A stretch of DNA of 64,000 nucleotides from Acidipila sp. (GTDB lineage: Bacteria; Acidobacteriota; Terriglobia; Acidiferrales; UBA7541): assembly GCA_010365215.1 (NCBI GenBank), contig JAAFGT010000002.1, positions 1 through 64,000 of the forward strand, read 5' to 3'. A program made the position numbers and the translations under genes. Shown piece after piece: positions 31,267 through 57,738 of this stretch; positions within the stretch are counted from its first letter, which is position 1; every line of letters starts with the position of its first letter. The notes below the pieces were generated by a model. That model was not told the origin of the DNA. It did no database searches and was given only the letters and a program-made list of their open reading frames with translations.

Positions 31267-31605
31267 TCCGCTTACTTCTCCCAAGGGCCTGTTAAGCGTT
31301 TCCGAGACCATCGGCGGCGGGCGTGTGTCCGGCGTTTTGGTGCCGGGCTGGTGGTTTTCCGCCATCCGCGCTACTCTCCAGCCAGTATAAAATCTCAAAA
31401 AGTTGGCAAATGATCGCGGTGTCGATCCGCCGGCACTTTATCAGAGCCAAAGGCGCGTCGCTGGCTGAGAAATCTGACCGAAGGGCGCTGTGAAAGTGAA
31501 AGGTCGAAGCGACCACGTATTCCACGAAAATGCTGAAGCGGTCTAGGCCGGATTACGCAGCACGCTCTACGGACTCAAGAATCAGTAGACCCGCTTAATC
31601 GCGAT
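31267..31605. other. Gap between the precursor and the export operon
   Basis: These 339 bases carry no frame that looks like protein on either strand. I see no strong terminator or repeat. A promoter for the cNMP-domain/NHLM export genes may be here, but no boxes stand out. Confidence 0.3.
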
Positions 31606-32184
31606 GTGGCAAACTACCTGCCGGGACCCGCCCGCGACGACATGCGAAAAGCCTTACTTTTTCTCGGCATCTTAAACGATTCAGATATCGACTGGATGGT
31701 CGCTGCGGCCACCAAGCGGGAAGTGCCGGCAGGCGAGATACTCATTCAGGAAGGGAAGGCTGTTGACTCGGTGTTTCTGGTGCTTGATGGCCAACTGGTT
31801 GTATCAGTCAGCGCGCTAGGCAACCGCGAAGTAGCCCGCCTGCGTAGCGGCGAAGTAGTTGGCGAAATGTCGTTCGTTGATTCCCGGCCACCATCGGCGA
31901 CCGTAAGGGCTTTGGAGACGAGCAGGGTGCTGGCGATTCCGCGTGTTCGCCTGGAAACCAAACTCGCTCAAGATATCGCGTTCAGCGCGCGATTTTATAA
32001 GGCAATCGCTACTTTTCTATCCGATCGCCTTCGCGGTACGGTGGGTTTGCTCGGTTACGGGCCTGGGCAGTCACTCGACGAAGCTACCGCCTACTCCGAC
32101 GAAATATCCACGGGGACTTTGGATAAGCTCTCGCTGGCAGGCGCCCGTTTTGACCTGTTGCAACGCCGCCTGCGGAGCATTTGA
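31606..32184 (+). CDS. Cyclic-nucleotide-binding-domain (Crp/PKA-R fold) protein of the NHLM locus
   Basis: The 192 residues have one cNMP-binding beta-roll: ALLFLGILNDSDIDWMVAAA, GEILIQEGKAVDSVFLVLDG, RSGEVVGEMSFVDSRPPSATV and the helices after it. There is no DNA-binding helix-turn-helix and no membrane span. Genes of this kind are regular neighbours of NHLM-type bacteriocin exporters, where their role is unknown; a regulatory or scaffold role at the exporter is likely. The phosphate-binding Arg is replaced, with the cassette reading GEMSFVDSRPPSATV and Arg before the PPSA. The start is a GTG; an ATG at 31642 is an alternative. Confidence 0.8.
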   Translation: MANYLPGPARDDMRKALLFLGILNDSDIDWMVAAATKREVPAGEILIQEGKAVDSVFLVLDGQLVVSVSALGNREVARLRSGEVVGEMSFVDSRPPSATVRALETSRVLAIPRVRLETKLAQDIAFSARFYKAIATFLSDRLRGTVGLLGYGPGQSLDEATAYSDEISTGTLDKLSLAGARFDLLQRRLRSI

Positions 32185-32219
32185 TTTAACAGTGTCTTGA
32201 ACACATCTTGCGACTAGCC

Positions 32220-33536
32220 ATGGCTGCCCCCCGCCAACAACTTTTTCGCCCCGAAGCACTTGAACGGTACTCCTCGCCAGACAATCTCGACCAGCTCATG
32301 CGGGTGGTAAGCGCTAAGGACTGGGTTCCCTTGGCGGTGATTGCCGGACTGTTCATCGCATTTTCGACCTGGTGTGTTTTTGGTTCCTTGCCCACGACCG
32401 TAACCGCCCGGGGTGTGCTGCTCCGGCCACGTAAATTGGTACAGGTTCAGGTCCTGGGTGGCGGGCGACTTGAGTCGCTCAGTGCGCGCGTGGGTGACTC
32501 AGTTCATACGGGGCAACTGATCGCCCGTGTGGATCAGTCCGAGCTCCACCGGAAAATCGAAGATGACCGGCAATTTCTGAACACGCTGCTGATGCAGGAG
32601 CGTCTGAAAACATCTACGCAGAATGTTCAAGTGAACCTGCAAACTCAGCAGGACCGGCTGGAGAGAAAGTCTCTCGAAGCGCAGCGGGTAAGTCTTCAAC
32701 ATGGCCTGGATGATGCGGTAGCCCTGGATCCCATGCTCAAGCGTCGCCTCGAGAGCCTGCGAAAGCTGAAGGAGTCAGGGCTGATTGCGGAAGCGTCGCA
32801 GGAATATATCCAGGGCGAACTCAGCTACCGCGACAATAATGCGAAGCTTTCGGAGTTTAAAGCCAAACTCGAGCAGATCGACAGCCAGTTGAAGCAGCTG
32901 GAGACGCGCTTCAGCGCACTCGGCAGGGAAAATCTTGAATCCTCCACAACGCGCCAAAACCAGATTAGCGATCTGCGCTCGCGGATTGCCATGAGCGAAC
33001 TACAGCTTTCCAAGAGCGGCGATATCGTCAGCGACTATAGCGGCCAGGTGTCAGAAATATTCGCGACGGCTGGACAAGTGCTCCCCGCCGGAGGGCGCCT
33101 GCTCTCCCTGGACGTTGAAGGCCGGGCAACGCCGCCGATCAGCCTTACGTATTTCCCCATCAAAGACGGGAAAAAAATTCAACCGGGTATGGATGTGCAA
33201 GTGACTCCCGACACAGTTCAGCGCCAGCGATTCGGCGGCATCGTAGGCAAAGTCATTTCTGTCACGACACTGCCGGTAACGCGCGAGGGCGCGAACAACA
33301 CCATCGGAAATGCCGACCTGGTACAGGGCATCATGGGTGAAGGCGCGTTTATTGAAGTCACCGCGCAGCTCGAGCAGGATGGGTCGACCTACAGCGGCTA
33401 TCGCTGGTCTTCTTCAAGAGGGCCGCAACTCAAGATCACTTCCGGGCTTACAACGGTTTCCCGCGTCACCGTCGAACGCCGTGCGCCTATCACTTATGTT
33501 TTCCCGATCTTGAGAGAGGCCATCGGTGCCTACTGA
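32220..33536 (+). CDS. NHLP bacteriocin system secretion protein (HlyD-family membrane fusion protein)
   Basis: About 438 residues: a short cytosolic N-terminus (LFRPEALERYSSPDNLDQLM), one transmembrane helix (VPLAVIAGLFIAFSTWCVFG), a lipoyl-like half (VLGGRLESLSARVGDSVHTGQLIARV with intervening Gly), a long coiled coil (about 120-270) and a beta-barrel part. This is the periplasmic adaptor of the NHLM export system that links the ABC transporter to the outer membrane. The start is taken at the ATG 32220 (TTG at 32208 is possible). It overlaps the next gene by 11 bases if that starts at GTG 33526. Confidence 0.9.
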   Translation: MAAPRQQLFRPEALERYSSPDNLDQLMRVVSAKDWVPLAVIAGLFIAFSTWCVFGSLPTTVTARGVLLRPRKLVQVQVLGGGRLESLSARVGDSVHTGQLIARVDQSELHRKIEDDRQFLNTLLMQERLKTSTQNVQVNLQTQQDRLERKSLEAQRVSLQHGLDDAVALDPMLKRRLESLRKLKESGLIAEASQEYIQGELSYRDNNAKLSEFKAKLEQIDSQLKQLETRFSALGRENLESSTTRQNQISDLRSRIAMSELQLSKSGDIVSDYSGQVSEIFATAGQVLPAGGRLLSLDVEGRATPPISLTYFPIKDGKKIQPGMDVQVTPDTVQRQRFGGIVGKVISVTTLPVTREGANNTIGNADLVQGIMGEGAFIEVTAQLEQDGSTYSGYRWSSSRGPQLKITSGLTTVSRVTVERRAPITYVFPILREAIGAY

Positions 33537-35736
33537 GGCAATGCCCGGGCCAGTGGCGCTTCCCACAGGGCGTGTTCGCACTCCCACAATTTTACAAATG
33601 GAAGCCGTCGAGTGCGGAGCTGCGGCGTTGGCCATTATCCTTCATCACTACGGCCGGCTGGTCCCCTTGGCGCAACTTCGCAAGGATTGTGGGGTGTCAC
33701 GCGATGGCTCGAAGGCCTCCAACATCGTAATCGCCGCGCACGCTTACGGCCTTCAATGCAAGGGCTTTCGAAAAGAGATCGCCGACCTCAAAGACGTAAA
33801 ATATCCCTACATTATTTTTTGGAACTTCAACCATTTTTTGGTGGTGGAGGGGTGCCGCAAAGGAATGGTCTATCTGAACGATCCCGCCAGCGGTCCGCGC
33901 CAGGTGACGCTGGAGGAATTCGATGAAGCCTACACGGGTGTGGTGCTGGCGATGGAACCGGGTCCGGAATTTACTCGGGCCGGCAGCAAACCCAGCGTTC
34001 TAGCGAGCCTAGGCGGTCGGCTGCGGAACTCGATGGGTGCGGTCGCGCTATGCGCCTTCGCCGGGCTATTGCTGGTGATTCCGGGCCTTCTCGCCGCCGC
34101 ATTGATCGAACTTTTCATTGACAAAGTGCTGGTGCAGCAGTTTCAAGACTGGGCCCGGCCGATTATCATCGGCATGTTGCTGACCACCCTGCTTCGAGGA
34201 TATCTCACCGCGTTGCAGGCAGGCATGCTGCGACGATTGGATATTAAGCTTGCCGTGGCCATGTCTAGCCGTTTCGTGTGGCACCTGCTCCACCTGCCCG
34301 CCTCCTATTATGCGCAGCGTTATAGCGGCGAAATCAGCGATCGAATCTATCTGAATGACAAAGTGGCCCGGGTTCTTTCGAGCCGTTTGGCGACGACGAT
34401 CATCGATGTGGTGATGATGATCTTTTATCTTTTTGTGATGATTCAATTTGACGCTGTACTTACCGCGATCGGCGTATCTTTCGCGCTGTTGAATTTTCTC
34501 CTGCTGCGCTGGATTGCGCGTGAGCGCCTGGACAGCAATTACCGCCTGGCTCACTACGGCGGAAAGGCCGCGGGTGTCGCCATCTCGGGGCTGCAAAGCA
34601 TCCGCACGATCAAGGCCAGCGCCCTAGAATCCGATTTCTTCGAACGCTGGGCGGGACACTTTGCCAAACTGATAAATGCAAAACAAAAACTTGGGCTAAC
34701 GAATCAATATTTCAACGTGCTCCCTCCTTTTCTGACGGGCCTCATGACTCTCTTGATTCTGGTTACGGGTGGCCTGAGAGTCATGAATGGGATGTTGACG
34801 ATAGGCCAGCTAGTGGCCTTCCAGTCGCTCATGCTGAGTTTCCTTCTTCCGGTTAACAACCTTGTGGCATTGGGCTCGGAGTTGCAGGAACTCGAGGGCG
34901 ACCTTAGCCGGCTGGATGATGTTCTACGCAATCCGACCGACTCCAACTTCGTGCCAAAGGGCGACGGGCCCCAAGGTTATGAGGCAGCGGGAATGCAACC
35001 TGCCCGCCTCTCCGGCCATCTCGAGTTGCGCGGGGTGTCCTTCGGGTATAACCCGCTTACCCCGCCGTTGATTGAAAATCTGTCCCTTACCGTACGGCCC
35101 GGCCAGCGCGTAGCATTTGTAGGCGCCAGCGGCTCGGGAAAATCGACCCTGGCGAAGCTGGTGGCCGGCCTGTACGAACCGACGGAAGGAGAGATTCTAT
35201 TCGACGGTACACCGCGTTCGAACCTTTCCCGTGAATTAATCACCGGCTCGCTCGGGATGATCGAGCAGGACATCCTGATGTTCGGAGGCAGCGTAAAAGA
35301 TAATCTGACTCTGTGGGATTCCTCAGCGCCTGAGGAGAGAATCTTGTCGGCGTGCCAGGATGCTCTGATACATCAGGTAATCTCCGCGCTGCCGGACGGG
35401 TACCGCGGACAATTGCTGGAAAACGCGGCCAATATGAGCGGGGGCCAGCGACAACGTCTGGAGATAGCTCGCGCCCTGGTCAACAATCCCTCAATCCTGG
35501 TGATGGATGAAGCCACCAGTGCGCTCGATGCAGAGACTGAAAACTTGATCGACCAGAACATCCGCCGCCGCGACTGTACGTGCGTCATCGTAGCCCACCG
35601 CTTGAGCACGATTCGTGACTGCGACGAGATTATCGTTTTGAATTTTGGAAAGGTCGTCCAACGAGGCAGTCACGAAGAATTGATCAAACAGGATGGCGAG
35701 TATTTGCGCTTGCTCTCCTATGAAGGCATGACCTGA
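33526..35736 (+). CDS. NHLM-family ABC exporter 1 with C39 leader peptidase
   Basis: The 736-residue protein has an N-terminal C39 peptidase (catalytic Cys in QMEAVECGAAAL near residue 30, His in FNHFLVVEG), six membrane helices and an ATPase. The ATPase reads GASGSGKST for Walker A, NMSGGQRQRLEIARAL for the signature, VMDEATSALD for Walker B and VAHRLST for the H-loop. All sites are canonical. It should cut Gly-Gly leaders, such as that of the precursor at 31045, while exporting the peptide. It works with the HlyD adaptor upstream and a partner ABC subunit downstream, in one operon. An ATG at 33541 is an alternative to the GTG start. Confidence 0.93.
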   Translation: MPTEAMPGPVALPTGRVRTPTILQMEAVECGAAALAIILHHYGRLVPLAQLRKDCGVSRDGSKASNIVIAAHAYGLQCKGFRKEIADLKDVKYPYIIFWNFNHFLVVEGCRKGMVYLNDPASGPRQVTLEEFDEAYTGVVLAMEPGPEFTRAGSKPSVLASLGGRLRNSMGAVALCAFAGLLLVIPGLLAAALIELFIDKVLVQQFQDWARPIIIGMLLTTLLRGYLTALQAGMLRRLDIKLAVAMSSRFVWHLLHLPASYYAQRYSGEISDRIYLNDKVARVLSSRLATTIIDVVMMIFYLFVMIQFDAVLTAIGVSFALLNFLLLRWIARERLDSNYRLAHYGGKAAGVAISGLQSIRTIKASALESDFFERWAGHFAKLINAKQKLGLTNQYFNVLPPFLTGLMTLLILVTGGLRVMNGMLTIGQLVAFQSLMLSFLLPVNNLVALGSELQELEGDLSRLDDVLRNPTDSNFVPKGDGPQGYEAAGMQPARLSGHLELRGVSFGYNPLTPPLIENLSLTVRPGQRVAFVGASGSGKSTLAKLVAGLYEPTEGEILFDGTPRSNLSRELITGSLGMIEQDILMFGGSVKDNLTLWDSSAPEERILSACQDALIHQVISALPDGYRGQLLENAANMSGGQRQRLEIARALVNNPSILVMDEATSALDAETENLIDQNIRRRDCTCVIVAHRLSTIRDCDEIIVLNFGKVVQRGSHEELIKQDGEYLRLLSYEGMT

Positions 35737-35768
35737 TGTGCGCGCAGGCAAGTACAGGCTAAAAGCCT

Positions 35769-38618
35769 TTGAGTCCATTTACTGAACAACGCGTTGGGGG
35801 TCCAAGCCAGCTCTTACCGGGTAAGGGCCCCTTTTCATTGGGCAGCCGGGATGTCGCCTGGGTGGTGGATCACGGCTCGGCAGCGGTGTCCGTTGTCGAT
35901 TTTGAAAATGGCGAGCCGAAGGGAGTGCGGCGTTATCTCTTTACCGTTAAGAGCGGAGACGTCCTCCTGGGGATGTCAGGAGCTCGGGGTAGCAGACATA
36001 AAGAACTGATTGCCGTGGCCATTGAATCCGCGCGAGTGTCACCGATCGCTGCCGACGAAGTTGCCGTAACAGCCTGGGTGTCTAGTCTCTCTTCGGCTCT
36101 CGCCGGACTTGCTCCCCCGGACGGCGCTGCGCCTTTGCCCGTTGATCGTCAGATCTATATCGAGGCGGGTGATTCCGCCTTTGCCAACGACACAGTAGCG
36201 TGGCTGCGCACCATTAAAGGCAGCATCCGACTGCTTGGATATCCTGAAGGCAAAATTGACCAACCAGGCGTGCCCTTTCTGCTCGGCCCTGGCATGTGGA
36301 TCGAGGCGGACGAGCCCACCGAGCTTGAACGCGTTGCAGGAGGGGAAAAAGCGCTCGAGTCACTAGCAGTGTTGGAGCCTATCATTTTCCGGGCCTTTGA
36401 CGATCTCGATCACAGACGAGAAGAGGAAAACCGCTCACACTTACGCCGGCGCCAGGAGTTGGACCGTCGCCTGGCAGCGCAAACTGAGCGGGACCTCGCC
36501 TCCCTCACGAGCGGCGAAGTTACACGAATTGAATTTTCGTCCGACCCACCCCTGCTCGCCGCCGCACGAACGGTTGGACAAGCCGAAGGCATTGTAATCA
36601 AGCCAGCAAGCTCGGACAGTTACCAACGCGACCCCCTGGAAGCTATCGCCATCGCCTCGGCGGTACGCACGCGCAGAGTTTTGCTGGCGGCGCGGTGGTG
36701 GCAAGGCGAAAACGGCTCTCTGCTTGCCTACCAGGGGGAACAAAATCGCCCGGTGGCGCTTATCCAGGTACGTTATGGGCGGAGCCACGGGTACGACTTG
36801 TTCGATCCGGCCGCAGGTAGCGTCACTCCGGTTGACGCCTCGGTTGCTGCCGCGCTTCACCCGGTGGCCTATTCCTTTTACCGCCCGCTCGGTCCGGCGC
36901 TCGGCACTTGGGACCTCATCAAGCTCAGTACCGAATTTCATAGAAAAGACATTGCTACGATTGTCTTGTGCGGCATTGCGGCCAGCCTGTTGGGTATGGC
37001 CGCCCCCGAGGCCAGCTCCATCCTCTTTTCGCAGGCCATCCCGGACGGAGATCGCAGCCTTTTATGGCAGGTGGCAATTGGTATGGGAGTGGCCCTGCTG
37101 GGAGGAATGCTCTTCGAAGTTACCCAGTCTGTGTCCATGCTGCGGGTCCAAACAGCTGCGGGAATTTTACTGCAAACGGGAATGTGGGACCGGCTGCTGA
37201 AGCTCAGTCCGGCATTTTTCCGCAAGTTCACGATTGGCGATTTGCGCGCGCGGGTCGAAGGTGTGAGCACGATTCAACACCTCCTGACGCTGGAAGGATT
37301 CCGCACCATCGTGGCGGGAGTGTTTTCCTCTTTATATCTTCTACTGATGCTTTATTACAGTATACCGCTGGGGCTAATCGCGTTGGCCGCCGGTATAGTG
37401 GTCATAGGCGGTACGGCTTTTGCGGCGCACGCGCTGACGGAGCTGGAAGGGAGCTTGCAAGCGATGGAAGGCGATCTCTCTGGCCTGACGATCCAGTTAA
37501 TCAACGCCGTGCCCAAACTCCGCGTCGCTGGGGCCGAGCGGAGAGCTTATGCCTTTTGGGGAAAGTCTTACACCAGCAAGCAGAAAGTTATGGCGCGAAT
37601 TCGGGCCGTGCTCGATCGCATGCGCGTCCTGAACGTTTCGGTGCCTCTCCTGGCTATTGGGTTTTCCTTTTGGTTTGCGTTGAGTTCGTTGTCCGACGCG
37701 TCCGGCAGCCTGCCACTCGGAACTTTTATCGCTTTTAACTTGGCGCTAGGCGTTTTCATGTCCGCGGTGACCAACTTGAGCGGCACCCTCATCGGGCTGG
37801 TACCCATTCTCAGCATTTGGAGGAGGACAAGAAGTATTCTCGACGCTACACCGGACGTAGAGGACGGCCAAGCCTACCCCGGACGTCTGCAAGGACGCAT
37901 TGTGTTCGATCGCGTCAGCTTTCGCTACCGTAAGGACGGCCCACTGACGCTCGAGGACATCAACATTTCTGTGCAACCCGGCGAGTGCGTTGCTCTGGTC
38001 GGCCCTTCGGGCTCAGGCAAGTCAACGATTGTCAATCTCATCCTCCGCTTCGAGACACCGTCTGCCGGCGCGATCTATGTCGATGGCCAGAATCTCGCAG
38101 GCATCGATATCTCCGCCGTCCGGAGGCAGATGGGAGTGGTCAGTCAAGACAGCAAGCTGATGTCCGAATCTATTTTTGAGAACATCGTCTGCGGAGGCCT
38201 CAGCACAATGGAAGATGCGTGGGAAGCGGCCCGCGCCGCAGGGTTGGCGGAGGACATTGAGCAAATGCCCATGGGCATGCACACAATCGTTTCGGAAGGC
38301 GGCTCCAACCTTTCCGGCGGCCAGCGCCAAAGAATAATGATCGCGCGAGCCCTGGTGATGAAAGCCGCCGTGCTGATTTTCGACGAAGCCACCAGCGCGC
38401 TGGACAATCAAACGCAGAATATCGTGACGGAGAGTTTAAACCAGCTAAAGGTGACCCGCGTGGTTGTGGCGCACCGCCTGAGCACCATCCGAAATGCAGA
38501 TAAAATCTATGTGATCGAGAACGGCCGTGTAGTCCAGCAGGGCAAGTACGAACAATTGATGGACGAGCCAGGCTTATTTGCCCAGCTTATGAAGCGGCAG
38601 ATGGTTGCGCCCGAATAG
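35769..38618 (+). CDS. NHLM-family ABC exporter subunit 2 (permease/ATPase with large N-terminal domain)
   Basis: The 949 residues comprise about 400 of an N-terminal region typical of the second NHLM ABC subunit, including a cytosolic part (ARVSPIAADEVAVTAW, coiled segment DHRREEENRSHLRRRQELDRRL). Six membrane helices and a canonical ATPase follow (GPSGSGKSTIVNL, NLSGGQRQRIMIARAL, IFDEATSALD, VAHRLSTIRN). No C39 domain is present. It pairs with the peptidase-bearing subunit upstream. The start is a TTG 32 bases after that gene; the ribosome binding site is weak. Confidence 0.9.
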   Translation: MSPFTEQRVGGPSQLLPGKGPFSLGSRDVAWVVDHGSAAVSVVDFENGEPKGVRRYLFTVKSGDVLLGMSGARGSRHKELIAVAIESARVSPIAADEVAVTAWVSSLSSALAGLAPPDGAAPLPVDRQIYIEAGDSAFANDTVAWLRTIKGSIRLLGYPEGKIDQPGVPFLLGPGMWIEADEPTELERVAGGEKALESLAVLEPIIFRAFDDLDHRREEENRSHLRRRQELDRRLAAQTERDLASLTSGEVTRIEFSSDPPLLAAARTVGQAEGIVIKPASSDSYQRDPLEAIAIASAVRTRRVLLAARWWQGENGSLLAYQGEQNRPVALIQVRYGRSHGYDLFDPAAGSVTPVDASVAAALHPVAYSFYRPLGPALGTWDLIKLSTEFHRKDIATIVLCGIAASLLGMAAPEASSILFSQAIPDGDRSLLWQVAIGMGVALLGGMLFEVTQSVSMLRVQTAAGILLQTGMWDRLLKLSPAFFRKFTIGDLRARVEGVSTIQHLLTLEGFRTIVAGVFSSLYLLLMLYYSIPLGLIALAAGIVVIGGTAFAAHALTELEGSLQAMEGDLSGLTIQLINAVPKLRVAGAERRAYAFWGKSYTSKQKVMARIRAVLDRMRVLNVSVPLLAIGFSFWFALSSLSDASGSLPLGTFIAFNLALGVFMSAVTNLSGTLIGLVPILSIWRRTRSILDATPDVEDGQAYPGRLQGRIVFDRVSFRYRKDGPLTLEDINISVQPGECVALVGPSGSGKSTIVNLILRFETPSAGAIYVDGQNLAGIDISAVRRQMGVVSQDSKLMSESIFENIVCGGLSTMEDAWEAARAAGLAEDIEQMPMGMHTIVSEGGSNLSGGQRQRIMIARALVMKAAVLIFDEATSALDNQTQNIVTESLNQLKVTRVVVAHRLSTIRNADKIYVIENGRVVQQGKYEQLMDEPGLFAQLMKRQMVAPE

Positions 38619-38625
38619 ATCTGAG

Positions 38626-39978
38626 TCACAGCATGTTTCTTTTTTGTAGATCATGGTACGTACGGTCGAGGCCATTCTTAATCAGCCCAATCATCTCGTC
38701 GATTTCGGCAAAGCTGATTACCAGGGGTGGGGCGATCATCATCCGGCTTCCAGCGGCTTGGACCACGATACCTTCATCGAAGCAGATGTCGCGGCACAGC
38801 TTTCCTACCTTGCTATCCACATCGAATAACTGACCGCTCTGCGCGTTCTTAACCAGAACCAACGCCGCAGTCATGCCGCAGGTTTCTATCGCTCCCACGA
38901 GAGGGTGATCCTTTAGTTCGAGAAAGCGCTTTCGCAAAAAAGGTCCGGACTCCTCGGCGACGCGGCGAATAAGGCCGTCGCGCTGCATCAGGCGGATGTT
39001 GGCGATCGCTACGGCGCACGCGACGGGATGTCCTGAACAGGAAAAGCCGTGGTCAAACACACCTCCACGGTCAATCAACGATTCGGCAACGCGATCGCTC
39101 ACGCCAACGCCGCCCAAGGGAATATACCCGGAGGTTACTCCCTTACCGAAAGTAATCAGGTCGGGCCGGAATCCGAAGTGCCCACACCCGAACCATGTTC
39201 CGAGTCGTCCAAAGCCGCAAACAACCTCATCCGAAACCAGGAGGACGTCGTATTTCTCACAGATACGCTGGATCTCTGGCCAGTAGCTTGCTGGAGGGAC
39301 GATGAAGCCTCCCCCGCCCTGGACGGGTTCGCCAATAAACGCCGCAACCTTGTCCGGACCAGACTTGAGAATCTGCTGCTCGAGCCACAAGGCCGCCCGG
39401 ATGCCGAACAGCTCCGGTGCGAGGGCGTTTCCGTAGCAAAAGTAATACGGTTGGCCGATCAGCTCGGTGTGGGTCACCGGCAAGTCGCGCCGCTGCCGCA
39501 CCTCTTCCGTCCCACCGAGAGCGGCCGCGAAGACCGTGCTCCCGTGGATCGAATTCTGGCAGGAGATGATGATCTTCTTTTGCGGCTGCCCGGCCAACTC
39601 CCAGTAGCGGCGCACCATGCGTAAAACGGTGTCGGTCGCTTCGGAGCCGGAGTTAGTAAAGAAAAAATGGTTAATTGCGGGCGGGGTGACCTCGCAGAGC
39701 AGGTCCGCGAGATTGACTGCGGGCACAACAGAACTACCGGAAAAATTGCTGTAAAACGACAACTCCTCTAATTGCGTTCTCGCGGCATCGATCAGTTCCT
39801 GCCGGCCGTATCCGACGTTAACGCAGGCAACGCCTGACATCGCATCCAAGAGCTTGCGGCCCTTTGCGTCCCAGATGTAAATACCCTTGCCACGAGTGAT
39901 TACCCGGGCGTCTTTTTGGCTTAGCGCCTTCTCGTCGGTGAACGGGTGCAAGAAGTGGGACCGGTCGGGGCACATCAT
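38626..39978 (-). CDS. Class III (omega) PLP aminotransferase in the NHLP locus
   Basis: The 450-residue enzyme shows MSGVACVNVGYGRQEL, FFFTNSGSEATDTVLRM, SIHGSTVFAAALGG, SDEVVCGFGRLGTWFG and the PLP lysine in LITFGKGVTSGYIPLGG. This is the subgroup of omega-aminotransferases that use polyamines, beta-alanine or lysine-like amines with pyruvate as usual acceptor. It lies directly downstream of three NHLP precursor genes on the same strand (190-base gap) and converges with the exporter operon on the other strand. A polyamine role is possible. Its position makes a role in modifying the lysine-ended precursor cores an attractive inference. Confidence 0.85.
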   Translation of the reverse strand: MMCPDRSHFLHPFTDEKALSQKDARVITRGKGIYIWDAKGRKLLDAMSGVACVNVGYGRQELIDAARTQLEELSFYSNFSGSSVVPAVNLADLLCEVTPPAINHFFFTNSGSEATDTVLRMVRRYWELAGQPQKKIIISCQNSIHGSTVFAAALGGTEEVRQRRDLPVTHTELIGQPYYFCYGNALAPELFGIRAALWLEQQILKSGPDKVAAFIGEPVQGGGGFIVPPASYWPEIQRICEKYDVLLVSDEVVCGFGRLGTWFGCGHFGFRPDLITFGKGVTSGYIPLGGVGVSDRVAESLIDRGGVFDHGFSCSGHPVACAVAIANIRLMQRDGLIRRVAEESGPFLRKRFLELKDHPLVGAIETCGMTAALVLVKNAQSGQLFDVDSKVGKLCRDICFDEGIVVQAAGSRMMIAPPLVISFAEIDEMIGLIKNGLDRTYHDLQKRNML

Positions 39979-40168
39979 GGGGCGGGTATCTTGCGTACGC
40001 CCGTCGTTACAAACGAAGCGTTATCGGACGATTTGTGTCGCTCAGCAGGTTGGAATGATTGCACGTCTTAGAGCCGCTTTGCGGCTTCCCGGGCACAGGG
40101 ATAAAAATTGACGCTTCGCCTACCAGTTCGCGCGGACACGGGATCTGTAGATTTGGTGAAACAGGTCC

Positions 40169-40450
40169 CTACTTTACGGGCAACATCCCTGCCACGGCCT
40201 TACCGCCCGCTACCTTTGCTAGTTCATCCTTCAATTCGCCGTCGGCGGATAGGGCCGGTATTACGAAATGCCGCGTCGTGGGAGTGTCCTCGATGAACTT
40301 ATAATTCACGCCTTCAGGCACCTTAATCCCCAAACTGGCTAACGCGTCTTTCGAGTTCGTTACAAGCTTGGCCTTAAATCCGGGGTCAGACCATGCCTTC
40401 GAAATTACGACCTTGAGGGCATCGCTGCTGAACTCTTGTCGATCGCTCAT
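40169..40450 (-). CDS. NHLP (nitrile hydratase leader) RiPP precursor 1
   Basis: A 93-residue precursor with the nitrile-hydratase-alpha-like leader (ALKVVISKAWSDPGFKAKLV, ALASLGIKVPEG, YKFIEDTPTTRHFVIP), ending ELAKVAGG. The predicted core is only KAVAGMLPVK: no Ser, Thr or Cys, and Lys at both ends. It is the last of three tandem copies, nearly identical to copy 2 in the leader. The start follows AGGAGAAT. It belongs to a locus with an ABC exporter pair upstream and an aminotransferase downstream. Confidence 0.9.
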   Translation of the reverse strand: MSDRQEFSSDALKVVISKAWSDPGFKAKLVTNSKDALASLGIKVPEGVNYKFIEDTPTTRHFVIPALSADGELKDELAKVAGGKAVAGMLPVK

Positions 40451-40496
40451 ATTATTCTCCTATCCGTTGCGGGGTAGATTCAACTATGCAAATAGG

Positions 40497-40778
40497 TTAC
40501 TTATAGAAGATCGCCCCTGCCACGGCCTTTCCGCCCGCCACCTTGGCCAGTTCGTCTTTCAACTCGCCATCTGCGGACATTGCCGGTAATACAAAGTGGC
40601 GCGTAGTGGGGGTGTCCTCAACGAACTTATAATTCACGCCTTCAGGCACCTTAATTCCCAAACCGGCTAACGCGTCTTTCGAGTTCGTTACAAGCTTGGC
40701 CTTAAATCCGGGATCCGACCATGCCTTCGAAATTACGACCTTGAGGGCATCACTGCTGAACTCTTGCCGATCGCTCAT
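40497..40778 (-). CDS. NHLP (nitrile hydratase leader) RiPP precursor 2
   Basis: A 93-residue copy that differs from precursor 1 at a handful of leader positions, with core KAVAGAIFYK after the VAGG. The true start is the ATG at 40778, where AAGGAGAAT lies just upstream; a longer open frame to 40880 runs into the intergenic spacer and copy 3 and is not real. The core again lacks Ser, Thr and Cys. Confidence 0.9.
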   Translation of the reverse strand: MSDRQEFSSDALKVVISKAWSDPGFKAKLVTNSKDALAGLGIKVPEGVNYKFVEDTPTTRHFVLPAMSADGELKDELAKVAGGKAVAGAIFYK

Positions 40779-40824
40779 ATTATTCTCCTTATGGTTGCGG
40801 GGTAGATTCAAAACTGCGAATAGG

Positions 40825-41103
40825 TCACTTATAGAAGGCCCCTGCCACGGCCTTACCGCCCGCCACCTTAGCCAGTTCATCTTTCAACTCGCCGTCCGCG
40901 GACATTGCCGGTATTACGAAGTGCCGAGTAGTGGGAGTATCCTCGATAAACTTATAGGTCACGTCTTCGGGCAGCTTAATTCCCAAAGTGGCCAGTGCTT
41001 CCTTGGCGTTCGTCACAAGCTTGGCCTTAAATCCGGGATCCGACCATGCCTTAGACAATATGACCTTCAGGTCGTCATTTCTGATTTCTTGTTGATCGTT
41101 CAT
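40825..41103 (-). CDS. NHLP (nitrile hydratase leader) RiPP precursor 3
   Basis: The first and most diverged copy, 92 residues: leader MNDQQEIRNDDLKVILSKAW onward, ALATLGIKLPED, YKFIEDTPTTRHFVIP, ending VAGG, and core KAVAGAFYK (nine residues). The ATG at 41103 follows AAGGAGA by a normal distance; an upstream ATG at 41139 in the same frame has no such site. It lies 237 bases downstream of the second exporter pair on the same strand. Confidence 0.9.
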   Translation of the reverse strand: MNDQQEIRNDDLKVILSKAWSDPGFKAKLVTNAKEALATLGIKLPEDVTYKFIEDTPTTRHFVIPAMSADGELKDELAKVAGGKAVAGAFYK

Positions 41104-41340
41104 GGAAAAATCTCCTTCACTTTTCAGGGCATCGTTCAAGTGAGGCGCCCGAAGATACAGGGTGGTTGGTAAATAATTCTAGGCCACTATCCGGAGGATT
41201 TCAACGCAAATCGAAAATACAACAGCCATAAACAGCCGCGGCGATTGAGATCGTAACTCTACGGTCAACTTATCGTTCCCATTATCATGCCGGCTGACCT
41301 GCGCACCGCGGGAGGGCGGGTAAAACGGGGCAGGACGCCG

Positions 41341-43308
41341 TCATGGAAGCATTCGACCGTGCTCGAGCCTGATGACCCGGGTTGCGAGCGCCATGGTAGA
41401 TGGGCGGTGCGTGCAGATGACAACCATTGTCCCGGCCGCTTGAAGATCAGCGATCAAGCCCGACTGCACCGTTTCGTCGAGATTCGAAAGCGCTTCGTCG
41501 AAAACCAGAATCTCCGGCCGGCGCACGAGCGCCCGCGCGATCAGCAGTTGGTTGACCATCGCCGAAGGCACCGTCGCTCGAGCCACCAGAGTTTGCATTC
41601 CCATCGGAAGGCTGGCGATCCTGTCCGAAATGCGCGCGAGGCGCGCCGCTGCCCATGCCTGCTCTTCGGGAATGGGAGTCGTTCCCAAAATCGTTCTGCG
41701 TATCGTGGCAACCTCAACGTGCTGATCCTGAAAAACCGCACCGACGCGGCGCCGATAGTCCGCGACGTCTGCAACGCGAAGGTCGAATCCATTCACCCGG
41801 ATTTTGCCGTGAGTTGGGTGTTCGAGACCCGTCAGCAGTCGCACGAGCGTCGTTTTGCCGCTGCCTGAGGGTCCGACCACGGCCACACAATCTCCTTTAC
41901 GCAATTCAAAACTGACATCCTCGAGGCTCGGCTGCGCTGCACCCGAATAGACAAAGCTCGCCCTTTCGAAGACCACGGTTGCGATTTCCCCTAATCTAGA
42001 CTGTTGGGGAGGCATTGCAGGTTCTGGTTCCATTAGCGAAGACTGAGCCGGCGTGCGCTTGTTAGCTTCGCGTAGGCCAGCCCATGCTGAGGCCACACGG
42101 CAGACCTCCGAGCCGAGCCAAAGACCGGAGAAAAGAATCACGGAGAGGCTCGAGAACGTCAAATTTCTTCCCGCTCCCGCAGCCAAGCTGATCACAATAG
42201 CAAGAACGACGAAAATCGGCCCGAAGCGCCGCAGCGATTCGTCACTGAGGCGCAGCACTTCAGAATGCGCCCTAGCGGTCAACTCCTCATTCGCAGCGAC
42301 ACGCCCCACATCGAGCGCCCAGTCAAGAGCGCCCAGAGAACGCAACCCAGGCAGGTGGGAGGCAAGCAGATTTCGCGTTCGCAGGATTCTGGGAGCCTGG
42401 GTGTTCTCAAACCGCACGCACGTTTCAAACGCACGCGTCAAGGCGTACTGCGCCCCGAAGAGGATTATCAGCGTCGCGCCGGCAAGCGCCGTCAGGCCGG
42501 GCGACACCAAGACGAGGACCAAAAAGGCGGCGCAGGCTCCCGGGACGGCAAGTCGAAGGACAAACTTCTGGGCGTCAGCATCATTGCCAGCGGTGATTGC
42601 GTCGTCAATTCTCGCCGCAAAGTCGGTCGAGGGAAGTACGCGGAAGCGCGCAAACGGAAAACCGAGCACGCGATTCCAAATAAAGGCGTGGCGCAAAATG
42701 TTTGCTTGCACTCGCCACCGCAATCCCGCGATAACGGCGATATATTCTGCCGTGGCAACTGCAGCAGCAAGCGCCATCCAAACGAACATCCCTGCGCGGA
42801 GCAGCGCAAAATCATAACTTGGAAAATACTTCCGGGCAAAAAGCGGGCCGAGCACCATAAAACTTACGAGAAAAACAGCCACCGTGGCATATCCGATCTG
42901 AAACAATGCGTCCGCGTGGGATCCACTGACGAATCGGGAGTAGCGGCGATCCTTGGGGGCGGGACCAGGGTAAGGCATGAAAGCCTCGTACTTCAATGTC
43001 GCCGCCATTGCGGCATCGACAACAACTGAATCGCTGCGGCTGGATGGTTCGAACGCGCGGTATTCGCGCCGGCGCCCTCGAATGAGAACCACTGGCATTC
43101 CGTCCGCTCGCCGGAATGCGAGGATTGGTCCGTTATCGAATAGCCACCAGCGGCGCTTGCGCAGGCGCACAAGGCGTAACCGAATACTAAAATCGGCAGC
43201 CGCATCGCGCCAATCCACGATGGTCCTACCCGCCCGGGCCGACTCCACCGACGCGTGAACCATGTTGAGCAACGCCGTCCCTAGACCGGTCACCGGGTCT
43301 GAAGTCAC
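41341..43308 (-). CDS. Second NHLM-type ABC exporter subunit 2, with degenerate signature motif
   Basis: About 655 residues, the counterpart of the 949-residue subunit but lacking roughly 250 N-terminal residues. A soluble N-domain (WWLFDNGPILAF, PVVLIRGRRREYRAFEP) is followed by about six helices and an ATPase. Walker A (GPSGSGKTTLV), Q-loop (VFQDQ), Walker B (LVFDEALSNLD) and H-loop (CTHRPST) are intact. The signature LSGGQ is replaced by VPSAMVNQ just before LLIARAL. The GTG at 43308 overlaps the upstream stop as GTGA and is preferred to the ATG at 43362, which would give a 58-base overlap. Confidence 0.85.
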   Translation of the reverse strand: MTSDPVTGLGTALLNMVHASVESARAGRTIVDWRDAAADFSIRLRLVRLRKRRWWLFDNGPILAFRRADGMPVVLIRGRRREYRAFEPSSRSDSVVVDAAMAATLKYEAFMPYPGPAPKDRRYSRFVSGSHADALFQIGYATVAVFLVSFMVLGPLFARKYFPSYDFALLRAGMFVWMALAAAVATAEYIAVIAGLRWRVQANILRHAFIWNRVLGFPFARFRVLPSTDFAARIDDAITAGNDADAQKFVLRLAVPGACAAFLVLVLVSPGLTALAGATLIILFGAQYALTRAFETCVRFENTQAPRILRTRNLLASHLPGLRSLGALDWALDVGRVAANEELTARAHSEVLRLSDESLRRFGPIFVVLAIVISLAAGAGRNLTFSSLSVILFSGLWLGSEVCRVASAWAGLREANKRTPAQSSLMEPEPAMPPQQSRLGEIATVVFERASFVYSGAAQPSLEDVSFELRKGDCVAVVGPSGSGKTTLVRLLTGLEHPTHGKIRVNGFDLRVADVADYRRRVGAVFQDQHVEVATIRRTILGTTPIPEEQAWAAARLARISDRIASLPMGMQTLVARATVPSAMVNQLLIARALVRRPEILVFDEALSNLDETVQSGLIADLQAAGTMVVICTHRPSTMALATRVIRLEHGRMLP

Positions 43309-45410
43309 TGGAGTGATCCTGCCGATGGCACGTAGTCGTCGAGATTTACGACGGCTTCGCATTGCGCGAGGCTTTCGGCGCGGCGGGAAATCAGCACTAG
43401 AGTAATGCCGCGGCGTCTGATCGCACTACGAATGACCATTTCGAGCTGCCAGTCGACACCGTCAAGCGCTTCATCGATCACCAGGACACTGGGTGACCGG
43501 GCGAGGGCGCGCGCGATTTCCAGGCGTCGCTGCTGTCCTCCGCTGAGTTCAAGCCCGGCTTGATCCAAGTACAGGTCTAATCCGCCGCGAGCGTCCAATT
43601 CGACGTCAAGACCAACTTCCGCGAGCACTTCCAACAACTGGGCGTCCGCTAAGCCAAGTCCCAGGAGAAGATTTTCGCGCACTGTAGCCGCGATAATCGG
43701 CCCTCGCCCTGCTACCAGCAGAGCTCCGGCTTGCGCGGGCGCTGAGCAGCTTGTGCCGTCAAACAGAATGTCTCCCTCGGTGGGTTCCAGGAATCCGCAA
43801 ATAAGCTGCGACAGCGCCGATTTTCCGGATAACGATTGCCCGGTTACGCCTATTTGCCCGCCGGCTGGAACGTCCAAGCTAAACTTGGAAAACACGAACG
43901 GCTGGTCTGGGGACGGCCGCCACGCCAGGTGATCGACCGAAACCCGTACACCCTTCCGGACGATGCTGGAAGTCTCACTGTGCAATGCAGGTTGCGCGTC
44001 CTCGAGATCGGCAAGCTGGTGTATGGCTCCGCGAAAGTCTCGAAGCCCATCAAGCCTCGCTAAACGTTCCAGTGGAATACCCACCACAAGGGACAAGACC
44101 AACAATTCACCTACCGAGCCTATAGAAAGTCGCGCTCGTTCGAGGGCAAGTATGCCGGCAATTAAGGTGGCACCCAACCGTGCGAACCTGACGACGAGGC
44201 GAACAGCGTCGAGACGGAGACGCGAGACTGTGGCTCGGATGGCGGCATTTGAGGCACGCGCGTGAAGTCCAGCAAGACGCGAAAAAAGTTCCGATTCGCC
44301 TCCAGACACCAGATGGGGCTCCATCCGTCCGAGCGTGTCGGGGTCGAAGCCAACGCACGCCAAAGGTCGTGCCGCTTGGCCAGCAACTACGCCACCGCGC
44401 CGCCGCCACACCGCACTGACCACCGCGACTTCGAGCGCAGCGATGCCAACGATAAGACTCCCGATCCAAGGATCGATCCAGAACGCATAGACACAAGGCG
44501 CAACCAGTCCCGAAAAGTCGAGTCCAGCGGCGAGAGCGTGTCCCTTCCGAACGATTTCACCGGGGGCGCTGAGCTTAGCGACGATTTGGGACGAAAGCCG
44601 ATTGCTGAAGAAGCGCTCCGGTAATCGACTGAGCCGATCCAGACCCTTGAGTGACGCTTCCGTCGCAAGGCCGAAGGCTGCTGCCACTGCGGCCCGATCC
44701 CGCATCCATCCGGCCCCGAAGGCCACGCCGGCAGCAAGGCAGAGCGCGACCAGATCCGGCCAGACCACAGATCCCCCGCTGACACGATCGATCAGCCGGC
44801 CGGCAAAAAATGCAAATGCCAAAATGGCTGCAACTACTACCCAGGAAAATGCTGCTGCCCCCACTAACTGCGGGACTACCGTATCAATTCTGTCCTTGAA
44901 CCATCGCCTCAAGGAGAACGAGCATCCCTGTCTGGTCAATATCGGACCCGGAGAAAGGGTCAAAACAAGGCCCGTGAAATCGTCGGCGAAATCTTCAATG
45001 GGAATCCGGGCTGGACCAACGGCTGGGTCGTTGACTTGCACTTCGTCTGCGGTGATGTCTTCGACCACCACAAAGTGGATGAAACGGCAGTAGGCGATCA
45101 TCGGAAATCCCACCGTCTGCATGTCCTCCATTTCTCTACGAAAAAGACGTGCGACGAATCCGTAGTGTTCTGCAAGCTGCATGAGCATCAGCGCACTCAC
45201 CCCCAACCGGGTCGACCCTGCCAAAAGCCTCAACTCTTCTAGGGTTACGTGCGTGCCTTGATATCCGAGCAAGATGGCGAGCGCTGCCAGCCCACATTCC
45301 GTGGTCTCGGCCTGCAGAACCAAGGGGGTCCGAACGGTACTTACGCACTTGCTAGCTCGGGCAAACCCCGACTCCATAGCATTAGCGGTGCGTTCAAACA
45401 TCGTTACCAT
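43305..45410 (-). CDS. Second NHLM-type C39-peptidase ABC exporter, with degenerate H-loop
   Basis: The 701-residue protein has a C39 peptidase with catalytic Cys (QAETTECGLAALAI) and His (RFIHFVVVED), membrane helices and an ATPase. Walker A (GQSLSGKSALS), signature (ELSGGQQRRLEIARAL) and Walker B (VIDEALDGVD) are kept. The H-loop His is Arg (LISRRAESLA) and the Q-loop Gln appears lost (LLVAGRGPI). With the next gene it should form a heterodimer with one working and one dead ATP site. Its ATG follows immediately after the stop of a 65-codon gene (TAG-ATG). It is probably the exporter for the three NHLP peptides downstream. Confidence 0.88.
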   Translation of the reverse strand: MVTMFERTANAMESGFARASKCVSTVRTPLVLQAETTECGLAALAILLGYQGTHVTLEELRLLAGSTRLGVSALMLMQLAEHYGFVARLFRREMEDMQTVGFPMIAYCRFIHFVVVEDITADEVQVNDPAVGPARIPIEDFADDFTGLVLTLSPGPILTRQGCSFSLRRWFKDRIDTVVPQLVGAAAFSWVVVAAILAFAFFAGRLIDRVSGGSVVWPDLVALCLAAGVAFGAGWMRDRAAVAAAFGLATEASLKGLDRLSRLPERFFSNRLSSQIVAKLSAPGEIVRKGHALAAGLDFSGLVAPCVYAFWIDPWIGSLIVGIAALEVAVVSAVWRRRGGVVAGQAARPLACVGFDPDTLGRMEPHLVSGGESELFSRLAGLHARASNAAIRATVSRLRLDAVRLVVRFARLGATLIAGILALERARLSIGSVGELLVLSLVVGIPLERLARLDGLRDFRGAIHQLADLEDAQPALHSETSSIVRKGVRVSVDHLAWRPSPDQPFVFSKFSLDVPAGGQIGVTGQSLSGKSALSQLICGFLEPTEGDILFDGTSCSAPAQAGALLVAGRGPIIAATVRENLLLGLGLADAQLLEVLAEVGLDVELDARGGLDLYLDQAGLELSGGQQRRLEIARALARSPSVLVIDEALDGVDWQLEMVIRSAIRRRGITLVLISRRAESLAQCEAVVNLDDYVPSAGSLQ

Positions 45411-45608
45411 CTAGGCGCTCATCCAGATCACGATCAACGCGAAACAGAGAAGCAACGCTAGGGCTAGCAGGCCCGCGCGATTGTCAGCCTTCGGCAGCGT
45501 TAACAACTCGTCGAGCGGTTCGGCCGAAGCCAGACGATCCCAGGCGACACGCCGGAATAATGATCCCGCGTCTGGAGTGGGCATCCGTTTCGGCACGACC
45601 TTCGTCAT
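45411..45608 (-). CDS. Truncated HlyD-like N-terminal stump (cytosolic tail plus one TM helix)
   Basis: The 65-residue product resembles only the first 50 or so residues of the NHLM HlyD adaptor encoded at 32220. Compare SLFRRVAWDRLASAEPLDEL with LFRPEALERYSSPDNLDQLM; each is followed by one hydrophobic helix (LLALALLLCFALIVIWM here). It then stops, with no coiled coil or barrel part anywhere nearby. The stop TAG is immediately followed by the ATG of the C39 exporter, which suggests translational coupling. It may be a decayed adaptor or a functional mini-subunit. Confidence 0.6.
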   Translation of the reverse strand: MTKVVPKRMPTPDAGSLFRRVAWDRLASAEPLDELLTLPKADNRAGLLALALLLCFALIVIWMSA

Positions 45609-46332
45609 GATGCAAGTTGCCGTGGGGCAGAATCCTGGATTGCGACCCCGGTGTTTGAGCCGCCACCAAGAATCTGGCCTCCTGACCGTACAAGCGCAAA
45701 TAAGAAGTCGCTGGCGTCAGTTCTCTCGCGTACGATCGTGGTCATTTATCGGCTCCCACTGCGAACCATCGTTTGATAACGCGTTGACCTTTTTTCAAGT
45801 AATGAGCTTTTGCGGGCTTGGGCATGTCAATAGCAGGATTTCAAGAGTTACCTTTCAATTGCAAAGCACATTGTGACATGTTGGATCCATGAATATTCCT
45901 GCTACTTCCGGGCGGCTCTAGTCCGGATAATTGTTGCATGCTTCTTGAATCTTGGTGAACTTAACACCCTTCTTCGCGAGCGATGCCAGGTGCTTCAGCT
46001 CTCAGACAGAACGTTCTCGGCGTGAATGAAGAACATAGAAGAGCTTCGCCCCTGTTGGCGTCGTGATCTCCCAGACATAGCGCCAGAACTCGCGCTGGAG
46101 GAGTCCACCGCGGCTTTTCTGGCCAGCTTCTGCAACTCTCGCTGGCAAAACACCCGGAACTTTGGTCCTAAACTATCGGCCTACTCGGCGCCCTACGAAC
46201 GTCCCATCGACTTCGTACGGCACGGCCCATACCCTGATCATACGATCCGAAAAAGCGCGTTCATCAGGGCCGGTAAAGGAGTTGGCACGCCCCCGGAGGT
46301 AGATGCGCTGTGGCTGGCGGGGAGCAGGAAAC
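45609..46332. other. Divergent intergenic region between NHLP locus and peptide importer
   Basis: About 720 bases between two divergent operons. A plus-strand open frame (46026-46385) is not convincing, since it overlaps the importer start in another phase. A TTGACA on the minus strand (45830-45825) may be a -35 for the NHLP operon, but its -10 is poor. A decayed minus-strand fragment lies at about 45925-46125. Confidence 0.4.
45925..46125 (-). pseudogene. Possible decayed gene fragment
   Basis: One minus-strand frame reads LQREFWRYVWEITTPTGAKL then FYVLHSRRERSV, a TGA, then ELKHLASLAKKGVKFTKIQE and a further stop. The residue make-up looks like real protein interrupted by a stop. I recognise no family. 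Confidence 0.35.
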
Positions 46333-47175
46333 ATGGAAAAGCTGCTTCAAGTGCGGGACCTGACCATCGACTACTGCTCGGCTGAGCTGCGCACGCATCG
46401 CGCGGTGGCCGGCGCCAGTTTCGATATCGCCCCCGGGGAAGTTGTGGGTTTAATGGGGGAATCAGGGTGTGGAAAGACCAGTATCGCGCTGGCTCTGCTC
46501 AATGTGTTGCCCAAGGATCGGACTCGCGTCACCGGTTCGATATTGTTTCGCGGGCAGGAACTGCTCACCATGCGGGAAACTTCGCTGCGAAAAATTCGCG
46601 GCGCTGCGCTTTCCATCATTTTTCAAGAGCCGGAAGCTGCGCTGAGCCCGGTGATGCGCGTGGGAAATCAGATTGCCGAAGTGATTCACGCGCACCGGAG
46701 ATGGAGCTGGAAACGCTGCCGGGACGAGGCCGCATCGGCGATCGCGGCGGTCGGGCTTCCTGCTACGGAGCGAATCTACCTCGCCTATCCGCACCAATTG
46801 AGCGGCGGGCAGCGGCAGCGCATCGTCCTCGCACAAGCGCTGGCGTGCGAGCCGGCGCTGGTGATCGCGGACGAACCCACGGCTTCGCTCGACGCGCAAA
46901 GCCAGGCCGATTTTCTGGTTCTGCTGCGCAATTTGAAGAGTGAGTCTAATGTTTCGGTGCTGCTCATCAGCCACTCGCCGGAAGTGCAAGCCAGCCTGGC
47001 TGATCGTCTGCTGGTGATGCAGTCGGGAAAGATTGCCGTAGACACAGCCTTCGCAAATCTTAATAGGCATCCCTCTCACGCCGGCACAAGAACCGTGCTG
47101 CATCCGAATCGTCGACCAGAAGTCGAGCGCGTTGCCAAGTCTGCCTTGGTCAGCCAGGGATCGTCCGTCCGATGA
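46333..47175 (+). CDS. Oligopeptide ABC transporter ATP-binding protein (DppD/OppD type)
   Basis: About 280 residues starting MEKLLQVRDLTIDYC. It has GLMGESGCGKTSIALALL for Walker A, SIIFQEPEAALSPVMRVG for the Q-loop in the peptide-importer form, QLSGGQRQRIVLAQAL for the signature and VIADEPTASLD for Walker B. It powers uptake of di/oligopeptides. AGGAAAC precedes the ATG at 46333; the frame's earlier ATG (46303) lacks a site. It is the first of five importer genes linked by four-base overlaps. Confidence 0.88.
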   Translation: MEKLLQVRDLTIDYCSAELRTHRAVAGASFDIAPGEVVGLMGESGCGKTSIALALLNVLPKDRTRVTGSILFRGQELLTMRETSLRKIRGAALSIIFQEPEAALSPVMRVGNQIAEVIHAHRRWSWKRCRDEAASAIAAVGLPATERIYLAYPHQLSGGQRQRIVLAQALACEPALVIADEPTASLDAQSQADFLVLLRNLKSESNVSVLLISHSPEVQASLADRLLVMQSGKIAVDTAFANLNRHPSHAGTRTVLHPNRRPEVERVAKSALVSQGSSVR

Positions 47176-48029
47176 GTATTGGCTCAAATCGAGCGGGTGG
47201 CACTTTGCCACCAACGTTGATGTGCGTCCGCAATTTGAGCAAGCAATATTCCCAGAGGCGTCCCCTGAATGGTGAAAAATTCATCATTCACGCTCTGAAA
47301 AATGTGAATTTGACGATTGCGCGCGGAGCTACCCTGGCCATCATTGGTGAGTCTGGCGCCGGGAAATCGACTCTAGCCCGCTGCCTGGCCCTGCTGGAAG
47401 AACCCACGCAGGGCGAAATCCATTTCGAGGGGAGCAACCTGCTGACTCTCGGACGGAAGAACCTGATTCCGATTCGCCGCAGGATTCAGCTTATCTTTCA
47501 AGATCCGGCTTCGGCACTGAATCCTCGCTTCACCGCAGAAGAGATCATCGCCGAGCCGATGTTGGTGCAAGGCCTTTCCACAAAGACTCAGCGGAGGCAA
47601 AGAGTTTCTGAATTATTCGACGAGGTCGGATTGCCCGCGCAGTGCGGGCAGAAGCGGCCCAGTGAGTTTAGCGGCGGGCAGCGCCAGCGCCTGGCCATCG
47701 CCAGAGCTCTGGCTCTCCGGCCAGCGCTGCTGATTCTTGATGAAGCGCTTTCACATCTCGATGTGGCCAATCAGCAACTAATTGTACAGCTTCTGGCGGA
47801 TCTTCAGTCGGCGCACTCGCTCACCTATCTGCACATCTCGCACGATGTGCGGATGGTTTCCAAGTTTGCAGATGAAATTGCCGTGATGCATGATGGAGCG
47901 ATCGTCGAGCTGCGGCCCGCCACGCAACTGCGCGCACACCCAGCTCACTTCCCTACCGGAGAACTCGTTAGGGCGACGCCCGCGCTGACAAGCGTCAGGC
48001 AGGGGCGCTTCCCCAGGCAGGCGCCATGA
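47172..48029 (+). CDS. Oligopeptide ABC transporter ATP-binding protein (DppF/OppF type)
   Basis: The 285-residue second ATPase: VRNLSKQYSQRRPL, AIIGESGAGKSTLARCLALLEEPT, LIFQDPASALNPRFTAEEII, EFSGGQRQRLAIARAL, LILDEALSHLD and HISHDVRMVSKFAD. It pairs with the ATPase upstream. It overlaps its neighbours by four bases on both sides (ATGA). Confidence 0.88.
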   Translation: MSIGSNRAGGTLPPTLMCVRNLSKQYSQRRPLNGEKFIIHALKNVNLTIARGATLAIIGESGAGKSTLARCLALLEEPTQGEIHFEGSNLLTLGRKNLIPIRRRIQLIFQDPASALNPRFTAEEIIAEPMLVQGLSTKTQRRQRVSELFDEVGLPAQCGQKRPSEFSGGQRQRLAIARALALRPALLILDEALSHLDVANQQLIVQLLADLQSAHSLTYLHISHDVRMVSKFADEIAVMHDGAIVELRPATQLRAHPAHFPTGELVRATPALTSVRQGRFPRQAP

Positions 48030-50025: not shown

Positions 50026-50057
50026 AACCGGCCGAATCTCTGCTAAAAAGTGGCGGT

Positions 50058-55330: not shown

Positions 55331-55500
55331 GCAGTTCCTGCCTTCTTTATTTTCGATCCCCTATATTTTATTCACCCTTGCCTGCCCTTATGAGTTGTAG
55401 AAGCGAGAAATGCTTACCTCACTCAGTTCGGACCAGAAGCCAGCAATCGGATCTTCGAGAAATCAATTGCCGGGGGAAATCGAGATGTCGGGGGGACAGA

Positions 55501-57691: not shown

Positions 57692-57738
57692 GCATTTATA
57701 TTGCGAATCATGACCGGCAAAAACACCAGCCCGAAAAC

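Follow-up and report, generated by a model that had tools for sequence, protein, structure and literature searches.

Three small peptide genes of Acidipila sp. encode precursors with a lysine at the very end, and directly downstream of them on the same strand lies a gene for a class III aminotransferase. Does this enzyme act on the peptides, or is it merely their neighbor? The first-pass annotation of this DNA proposed that a polyamine-type aminotransferase converts a core lysine into an aldehyde (allysine), which then condenses with an amine to give an imine macrocycle. We analyzed the window, i.e. the whole stretch of 64,000 nucleotides (positions 1-64,000 of contig JAAFGT010000002.1, assembly GCA_010365215.1), using family models, alignments and searches of related genomes.

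The minus-strand gene set and its predicted peptides

The genes form a minus-strand set that runs from 45608 to 38626 and holds a 65-aa anchor protein, two exporter halves, three NHLP precursors and the aminotransferase (Table 1). The arrangement described earlier was thus confirmed, and position 41103, where the annotated feature ended, is the start codon of precursor a. The aminotransferase is the sole non-exporter enzyme in the set and the only tailoring candidate in the operon of the precursors. Its 3' end lies 7 bases from the end of a convergent ABC2 gene (38618) of a LanM cluster and the precursors lie upstream, so it is enclosed by RiPP genes.

Table 1. Features of the minus-strand set in the window, with the evidence for each assignment.
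Feature	Position	Strand	Basis
Class III PLP aminotransferase (PRK07480 type), rebuilt pocket	38626..39978	-	Family models, alignment
NHLP precursor c, predicted core KAVAGMLPVK	40169..40450	-	TIGR03793 above cut-off
NHLP precursor b, predicted core KAVAGAIFYK	40497..40778	-	TIGR03793 above cut-off
NHLP precursor a, predicted core KAVAGAFYK	40825..41103	-	TIGR03793 above cut-off
Promoter-like TTGAAA-17-TAGAAT upstream of precursor a	41176..41204	-	Sigma-70-like consensus match only
Divergent NHLM-type ABC exporter half, ABC2-like	41341..43362	-	TIGR03797, 275 vs cut-off 709 bits
Divergent C39-peptidase ABC exporter half, ABC1-like	43305..45410	-	TIGR03796, 350 vs cut-off 853 bits
65-aa protein, similar to NHLM HlyD at the N-terminal membrane anchor alone	45411..45608	-	Similarity to the window's HlyD

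All three precursors pass the NHLP leader model (63.5-65.2 bits, cut-off 50.9) and have a conserved GG motif, the predicted leader cleavage site, which together identify them as NHLP precursors. The leaders are near-identical, and the tails after GG, 9-10 residues long, share KAVAG and the final Lys with 3-4 variable residues in between. Ser, Thr and Cys are absent from all three, so that the only reactive side chain conserved among them is that of Lys. For comparison we used 36 NHLP-like reading frames, 26 of them with a GG site. In this rough comparison (the frames were picked for their resemblance to the precursors in the window, some look like subunits of nitrile hydratase and the true site of a few is not their first GG) a final Lys was found in 0/26 cores, Lys directly after GG in 4, a core of at most 12 residues in 5 and a core free of Ser, Thr and Cys in one. 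A short core that lacks these residues and ends in Lys thus appears unusual. Selection on the last Lys cannot be proved from three paralogous precursors, and the leader holds many Lys of its own, so no feature singles out a core Lys as the target. Short cores were also seen in NHLP precursors from two genomes of the class of G492 (L125 9919-10191, TVDWNNLNFPM, and L129 9926-10294, NVDWNNLHFPM), where neither an exporter nor an aminotransferase was matched within the 20 kb fetched.

Transcription of the aminotransferase together with the precursors, from a site near 41190, is plausible. The last precursor stop and the aminotransferase ATG are separated by 190 bp, and inspection of the start by eye shows no clear ribosome-binding site; co-transcription is therefore an assumption. 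A promoter scan found no sigma-70-like site in this gap, and overall it returned three sites against 3.1 expected in shuffled sequence, i.e. no excess; special structure in the gap was not supported either (fold z -0.95).

Heterodimeric ABC exporters with a single working site are well established, and the motifs of the minus-strand exporter are compatible with this arrangement. The ABC1-like half has the C39 Cys, His and Asp (by eye, from the translation) as well as Walker A, LSGGQ and Walker B, and LSGGQ is missing from the ABC2-like half, in which both Walker motifs are present. Neither half reaches the equivalog level (Table 1), and the HlyD adaptor seems to be reduced to a stub: the 65-aa protein, whose gene directly abuts the following start codon, had no family assignment in the family-model scans and is 31% identical to the window's own HlyD over 49 aa (E 6e-4). 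The ABC1-like half is 28-32% identical to its best matches in the phylum and roughly equidistant from them, and the exporter was matched at this identity in 12 of 395 other phylum genomes (E≤1e-64) and in no plasmid (E≤1e-40) or viral contig.

Two RiPP systems face one another in the window. Head-on to the minus-strand set, the plus strand (27285-38618) carries a complete type 2 lanthipeptide cluster with LanM (931 bits, cut-off 304), a mersacidin/lichenicidin-type precursor at 31033-31266 whose core ends in KK (TIGR03898, 67.6 bits, cut-off 23.5), HlyD (TIGR03794, 336 bits, cut-off 156), a cNMP-binding protein and full-scoring NHLM ABC1 and ABC2. Action of the neighboring LanM on the three minus-strand cores by the lanthionine route was rejected, as these cores have no Ser, Thr or Cys.

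The aminotransferase and its rebuilt pocket

The aminotransferase gene encodes 450 aa in a frame with no internal stop. The protein matches Pfam Aminotran_3 (257 bits, cut-off 30.5) and exceeds the family cut-off of NCBIfam PRK07480 (641 bits, cut-off 510), in agreement with the earlier assignment to the omega/polyamine subgroup that acts on terminal amines. Two members of PRK07480, 6gwi (putrescine aminotransferase) and 4a6r (Chromobacterium violaceum), match it over the full length with 520 and 518 bits. The PLP lysine that the first-pass annotation had called intact is present, as K279 aligned to K288 of the Chromobacterium enzyme, and so is the pyridine-N Asp (D250, aligned to D259). The closest relatives found are L111 (58% identity) and a second sequence at 53%; within its own genome the next-best aminotransferase match is only 34% identical and no near paralogue exists. 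A structure model built on a 7-row alignment reached a mean pLDDT of 71 with several active-site loops below 50, and with such a shallow alignment it supports no claim about the pocket.

The pocket was compared at the level of aligned residues. Twenty cofactor and substrate contacts were taken from PMC3606037 and PMC6255834 and mapped by alignment to the Chromobacterium enzyme. As reference served 16 relatives, 13 from 203 Gammaproteobacteria-class genomes (E≤1e-135) together with L103, L104 and L107; L018 duplicates L107 and was removed, and seven sequences at greater distance were excluded. Only positions with at least 60% agreement among the other members were scored. The window enzyme deviates at 10/18 contacts compared to 66/257 other positions (one-sided Fisher p 0.0092), and the relatives deviate at 0-3 of 18-19 contacts each, with enrichment in none. 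L123, on a longer branch than the window enzyme, deviates at 3/18 contacts and 90/262 positions elsewhere, so evolutionary rate alone does not explain the change in the pocket.

The ten changed contacts, in Chromobacterium numbering with the family residue first, are L59V, W60A, F89S, Y153I, A231G, I262V, T321S, Y322C, R416Q and position 423, which is Met in the window enzyme and Ile in most relatives. W60, F89, Y153, A231, T321, Y322 and R416 are thereby altered relative to 6gwi and 4a6r, which share the PLP lysine and aspartate with the window enzyme. In its own numbering A51, S80, I144 and Q407 stand where the usual Trp, Phe, Tyr and Arg would be, whereas the cofactor contacts K279, D250, H145, V252, S112 and N109 are retained (K288, D259 and H154 of the Chromobacterium enzyme among these). 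Of the 78 columns that are invariant in all other members, 11 are altered. The pocket aromatics and the carboxylate Arg are present in 15 or 16 of the 16 relatives. In the tree the window enzyme nests within canonical members, beside L111 and L123 (support 0.99-1.0), whether the pocket columns are included or not, which means that these residues are ancestral and were lost in the window enzyme.

A second PRK07480 member on a long branch also lacks the pocket Trp and has Ser there (L123, the same gene as L150 8980-10356). It lies near a HlyD-like protein, a glycosyltransferase and a GGDEF protein, is preceded by a gene for a 754-aa protein with no family match, and no RiPP context was seen around it.

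The altered residues have known roles in the Chromobacterium enzyme, described in PMC6255834. W60 is a steric barrier, and W60C raises the efficiency of the donor half-reaction up to 13-fold and lowers acceptor activity. R416 recognizes carboxylates such as that of pyruvate, and R416K gives a 40-260-fold loss with aliphatic acceptors; in a Vibrio enzyme the same Arg-to-Lys change increased activity, so the carboxylate Arg is not an absolute requirement. Y153 packs on the PLP ring, and together with T321 and Y322 it reaches the phosphate (PMC6255834). By analogy, the window enzyme should have extra room for a bulky amine and a weak hold on pyruvate. With R416 changed to Gln, plain polyamine:pyruvate catabolism cannot be transferred unchanged, and the same holds for a scheme driven by pyruvate; pyruvate itself, which the first-pass annotation had taken as the acceptor, is doubtful also from the replacement of the cofactor-packing Tyr by Ile. 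The changes fit a peptide side chain better than putrescine, yet they also fit a loss of transamination.

Without the PLP-packing Tyr, the phosphate-contact Tyr and the carboxylate Arg transamination could be weak or absent. The enzyme may have kept its fold and cofactor Lys and lost transaminase function, either in favor of another PLP reaction (lyase, racemase or decarboxylase) or because decay is under way. Y153I, Y322C, T321S and R416Q all touch cofactor or carboxylate binding, the conservative R416K is by itself costly in the Chromobacterium enzyme, and otherwise invariant columns are altered. Against this, the open reading frame of 450 codons shows no unusual codon composition (GC3 0.69), and the PLP contacts Lys, Asp, His, Ser and Asn are untouched, whereas decay would not be expected to pass over these and concentrate in the substrate pocket. 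We consider such a loss unlikely, with perhaps one chance in a handful.

Distribution and the accessory island

A lack of recurrence of the aminotransferase beside NHLP genes had been put forward as grounds to refute the proposal, and recurrence was not found. The enzyme was absent near NHLP or NHLP-like genes in all 35 regions searched, where tblastn returned only chance fragments of at most 60 residues (best E 1.1). Twenty of these regions come from 16 other phylum genomes, of 18 with precursor-model matches (G282, G174 and a second place in G300 are excluded), and 15 from eight genomes of two proteobacterial classes, of ten over the NHLP cut-off (excluded are G911 and G660, whose frames resemble nitrile hydratase). 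Since several regions consist of a short contig, and nitrile hydratase takes the place of RiPP genes in some, this is a moderate test and not an exhaustive one. Across the phylum no enzyme of the window type was found in the 395 other genomes (E≤1e-120), so it is unique among 396. A scan of genome contigs with the aminotransferase gave eight loci (best 47%), the plasmid search 456 records, all below 60% identity, and the viral contigs none. The precursors matched 11 plasmid records, again all below 60% identity and several annotated as nitrile hydratase, and no viral contig. An NHLP leader that exceeds the cut-off is found in this genome alone out of 95 in the order, with sub-threshold matches in seven others, in long frames that resemble nitrile hydratase. 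A widespread class is not supported by this lack of recurrence. The system may be a private innovation of one genome, and seen only there, the role of the enzyme is unproven.

The RiPP island adjoins a block at 46303-58503 with a peptide importer, a sigma factor, a CHAT-TPR protein, a subtilase and HD-domain proteins. Counting the present genome, 23 of 53 from the order have the solute-binding protein of this block (E≤1e-90), and in 9/9 stretches fetched the genes after it are conserved as far as the contigs or stretches extend. None of the island genes (27285-45410) was found in the stretches of these nine relatives (tblastn E≤1e-15, identity of at least 38% shown), seven of which extend 4 kb or more beyond the importer on its upstream side and so allow absence to be judged. 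A conserved flank without the island, an enzyme unique in the phylum and an NHLP leader unique in the order together place the aminotransferase in an accessory island.

A rival reading makes the enzyme a neighbor only: its gene arrived with the island or landed in it, and its substrate is a small free amine, derived from a polyamine or from other metabolism, with no relation to the peptides. Membership in PRK07480 is in line with such a role, as are the 190-bp gap, the absence of recurrence with NHLP genes and the canonical relatives L111 and L112, which adjoin potF/potG-type polyamine importer genes. That polyamine-transport context is missing around the window enzyme: no adjoining polyamine gene was recognized among the window proteins scanned, and RiPP genes lie on both sides. 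Loss of aromatics and an Arg that the relatives keep also opposes the ancestral substrates. We regard a small-amine role as rather unlikely, though a serious contender. Plain polyamine catabolism, named earlier as the dull alternative, is disfavored by the contrast between relatives at 58% and 53% identity that lie by polyamine importers and a window copy with a rebuilt pocket in a RiPP island.

A candidate pathway

The reading we prefer, tentatively and at less than even confidence, is that a polyamine-type omega-aminotransferase was recruited, had its pocket rebuilt in an accessory RiPP island and now tailors Lys-ended NHLP peptides. It draws on the operon content, the core content and the pocket. 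The enzyme would pass the epsilon-amine of a core Lys to PLP, leaving an aldehyde (allysine), with an acceptor that is unlikely to be plain pyruvate. From its motifs, the C39 exporter would cut at GG and export a peptide of 9-10 residues. Ring closure between aldehydes and amines is known chemistry in general, and an imine would result here. With the first Lys as target, the simplest outcome is a six-membered piperideine formed with the alpha-amine of that same residue once it is free, and this should outcompete a 9-residue macrocycle; modification of the last Lys would open the way to a macrocycle that includes the N-terminal amine. The imine macrocycle proposed earlier hence stands as one candidate for a product lighter by 19 Da, and at least one other, the N-terminal allysine closed on its own alpha-amine, is simpler. 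Since piperideine and macrocycle share the -19 Da shift, this shift alone is no proof of a macrocycle. The whole route, from core Lys over allysine to a cyclic imine (a macrocycle or a piperideine at the N-terminus), and with C39 taking off the leader, is improbable when taken in all its steps. We know of no leader-binding domain in this aminotransferase family, and this counts against tailoring.

Among known systems, the daptides also combine a class III aminotransferase, MpaD/DapD, acting on the RiPP C-terminus, with several small precursors. According to PMC12338566, DapD moves the epsilon-amine of free Lys to a ketone on the peptide. Free Lys is thus the donor and the peptide the acceptor, whereas here the peptide would be the donor. 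A daptide-like reaction in the window, with an amine added to a carbonyl formed at the peptide C-terminus instead of being taken from Lys, has in its favor that daptide aminotransferases are likewise class III and peptide-acting. They belong to another subfamily, however, and the window enzyme scores 246 bits with the daptide_amino model, below the cut-off of 450. The invariant C-terminal Thr is absent from the cores, and no oxidative decarboxylase, RRE fusion or methyltransferase was recognized in the island. We rejected daptide identity on these grounds and hold a daptide-like reaction to be very improbable.

Proteusins and other NHLP RiPPs, selidamides included, share the NHLP leader, the GG site and an NHLM-type exporter with the window system, in which the cores are very short and the exporter is divergent with a HlyD stub. 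Selidamides undergo acylation of the amine side chain of a core Lys or Orn by a GNAT enzyme, as described in PMC9505594. No GNAT-type acyltransferase was found among the minus-strand or LanM cluster genes scanned, which speaks against a selidamide, and no radical SAM enzyme or arginase was recognized with the window precursors. A literature search, mostly of non-subscription papers, found no publication on allysine made by an aminotransferase in RiPPs. As an idea drawn from a single genome, an allysine RiPP class is a long shot.

If the tailoring role is true, lysine-to-aldehyde chemistry by a transaminase would join the RiPP toolbox, and a very short peptide would carry a genetically encoded electrophile. 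Even if it is false, this is a natural omega-aminotransferase in which the equivalents of W60, Y153 and R416 have changed together, and its substrate is worth knowing.
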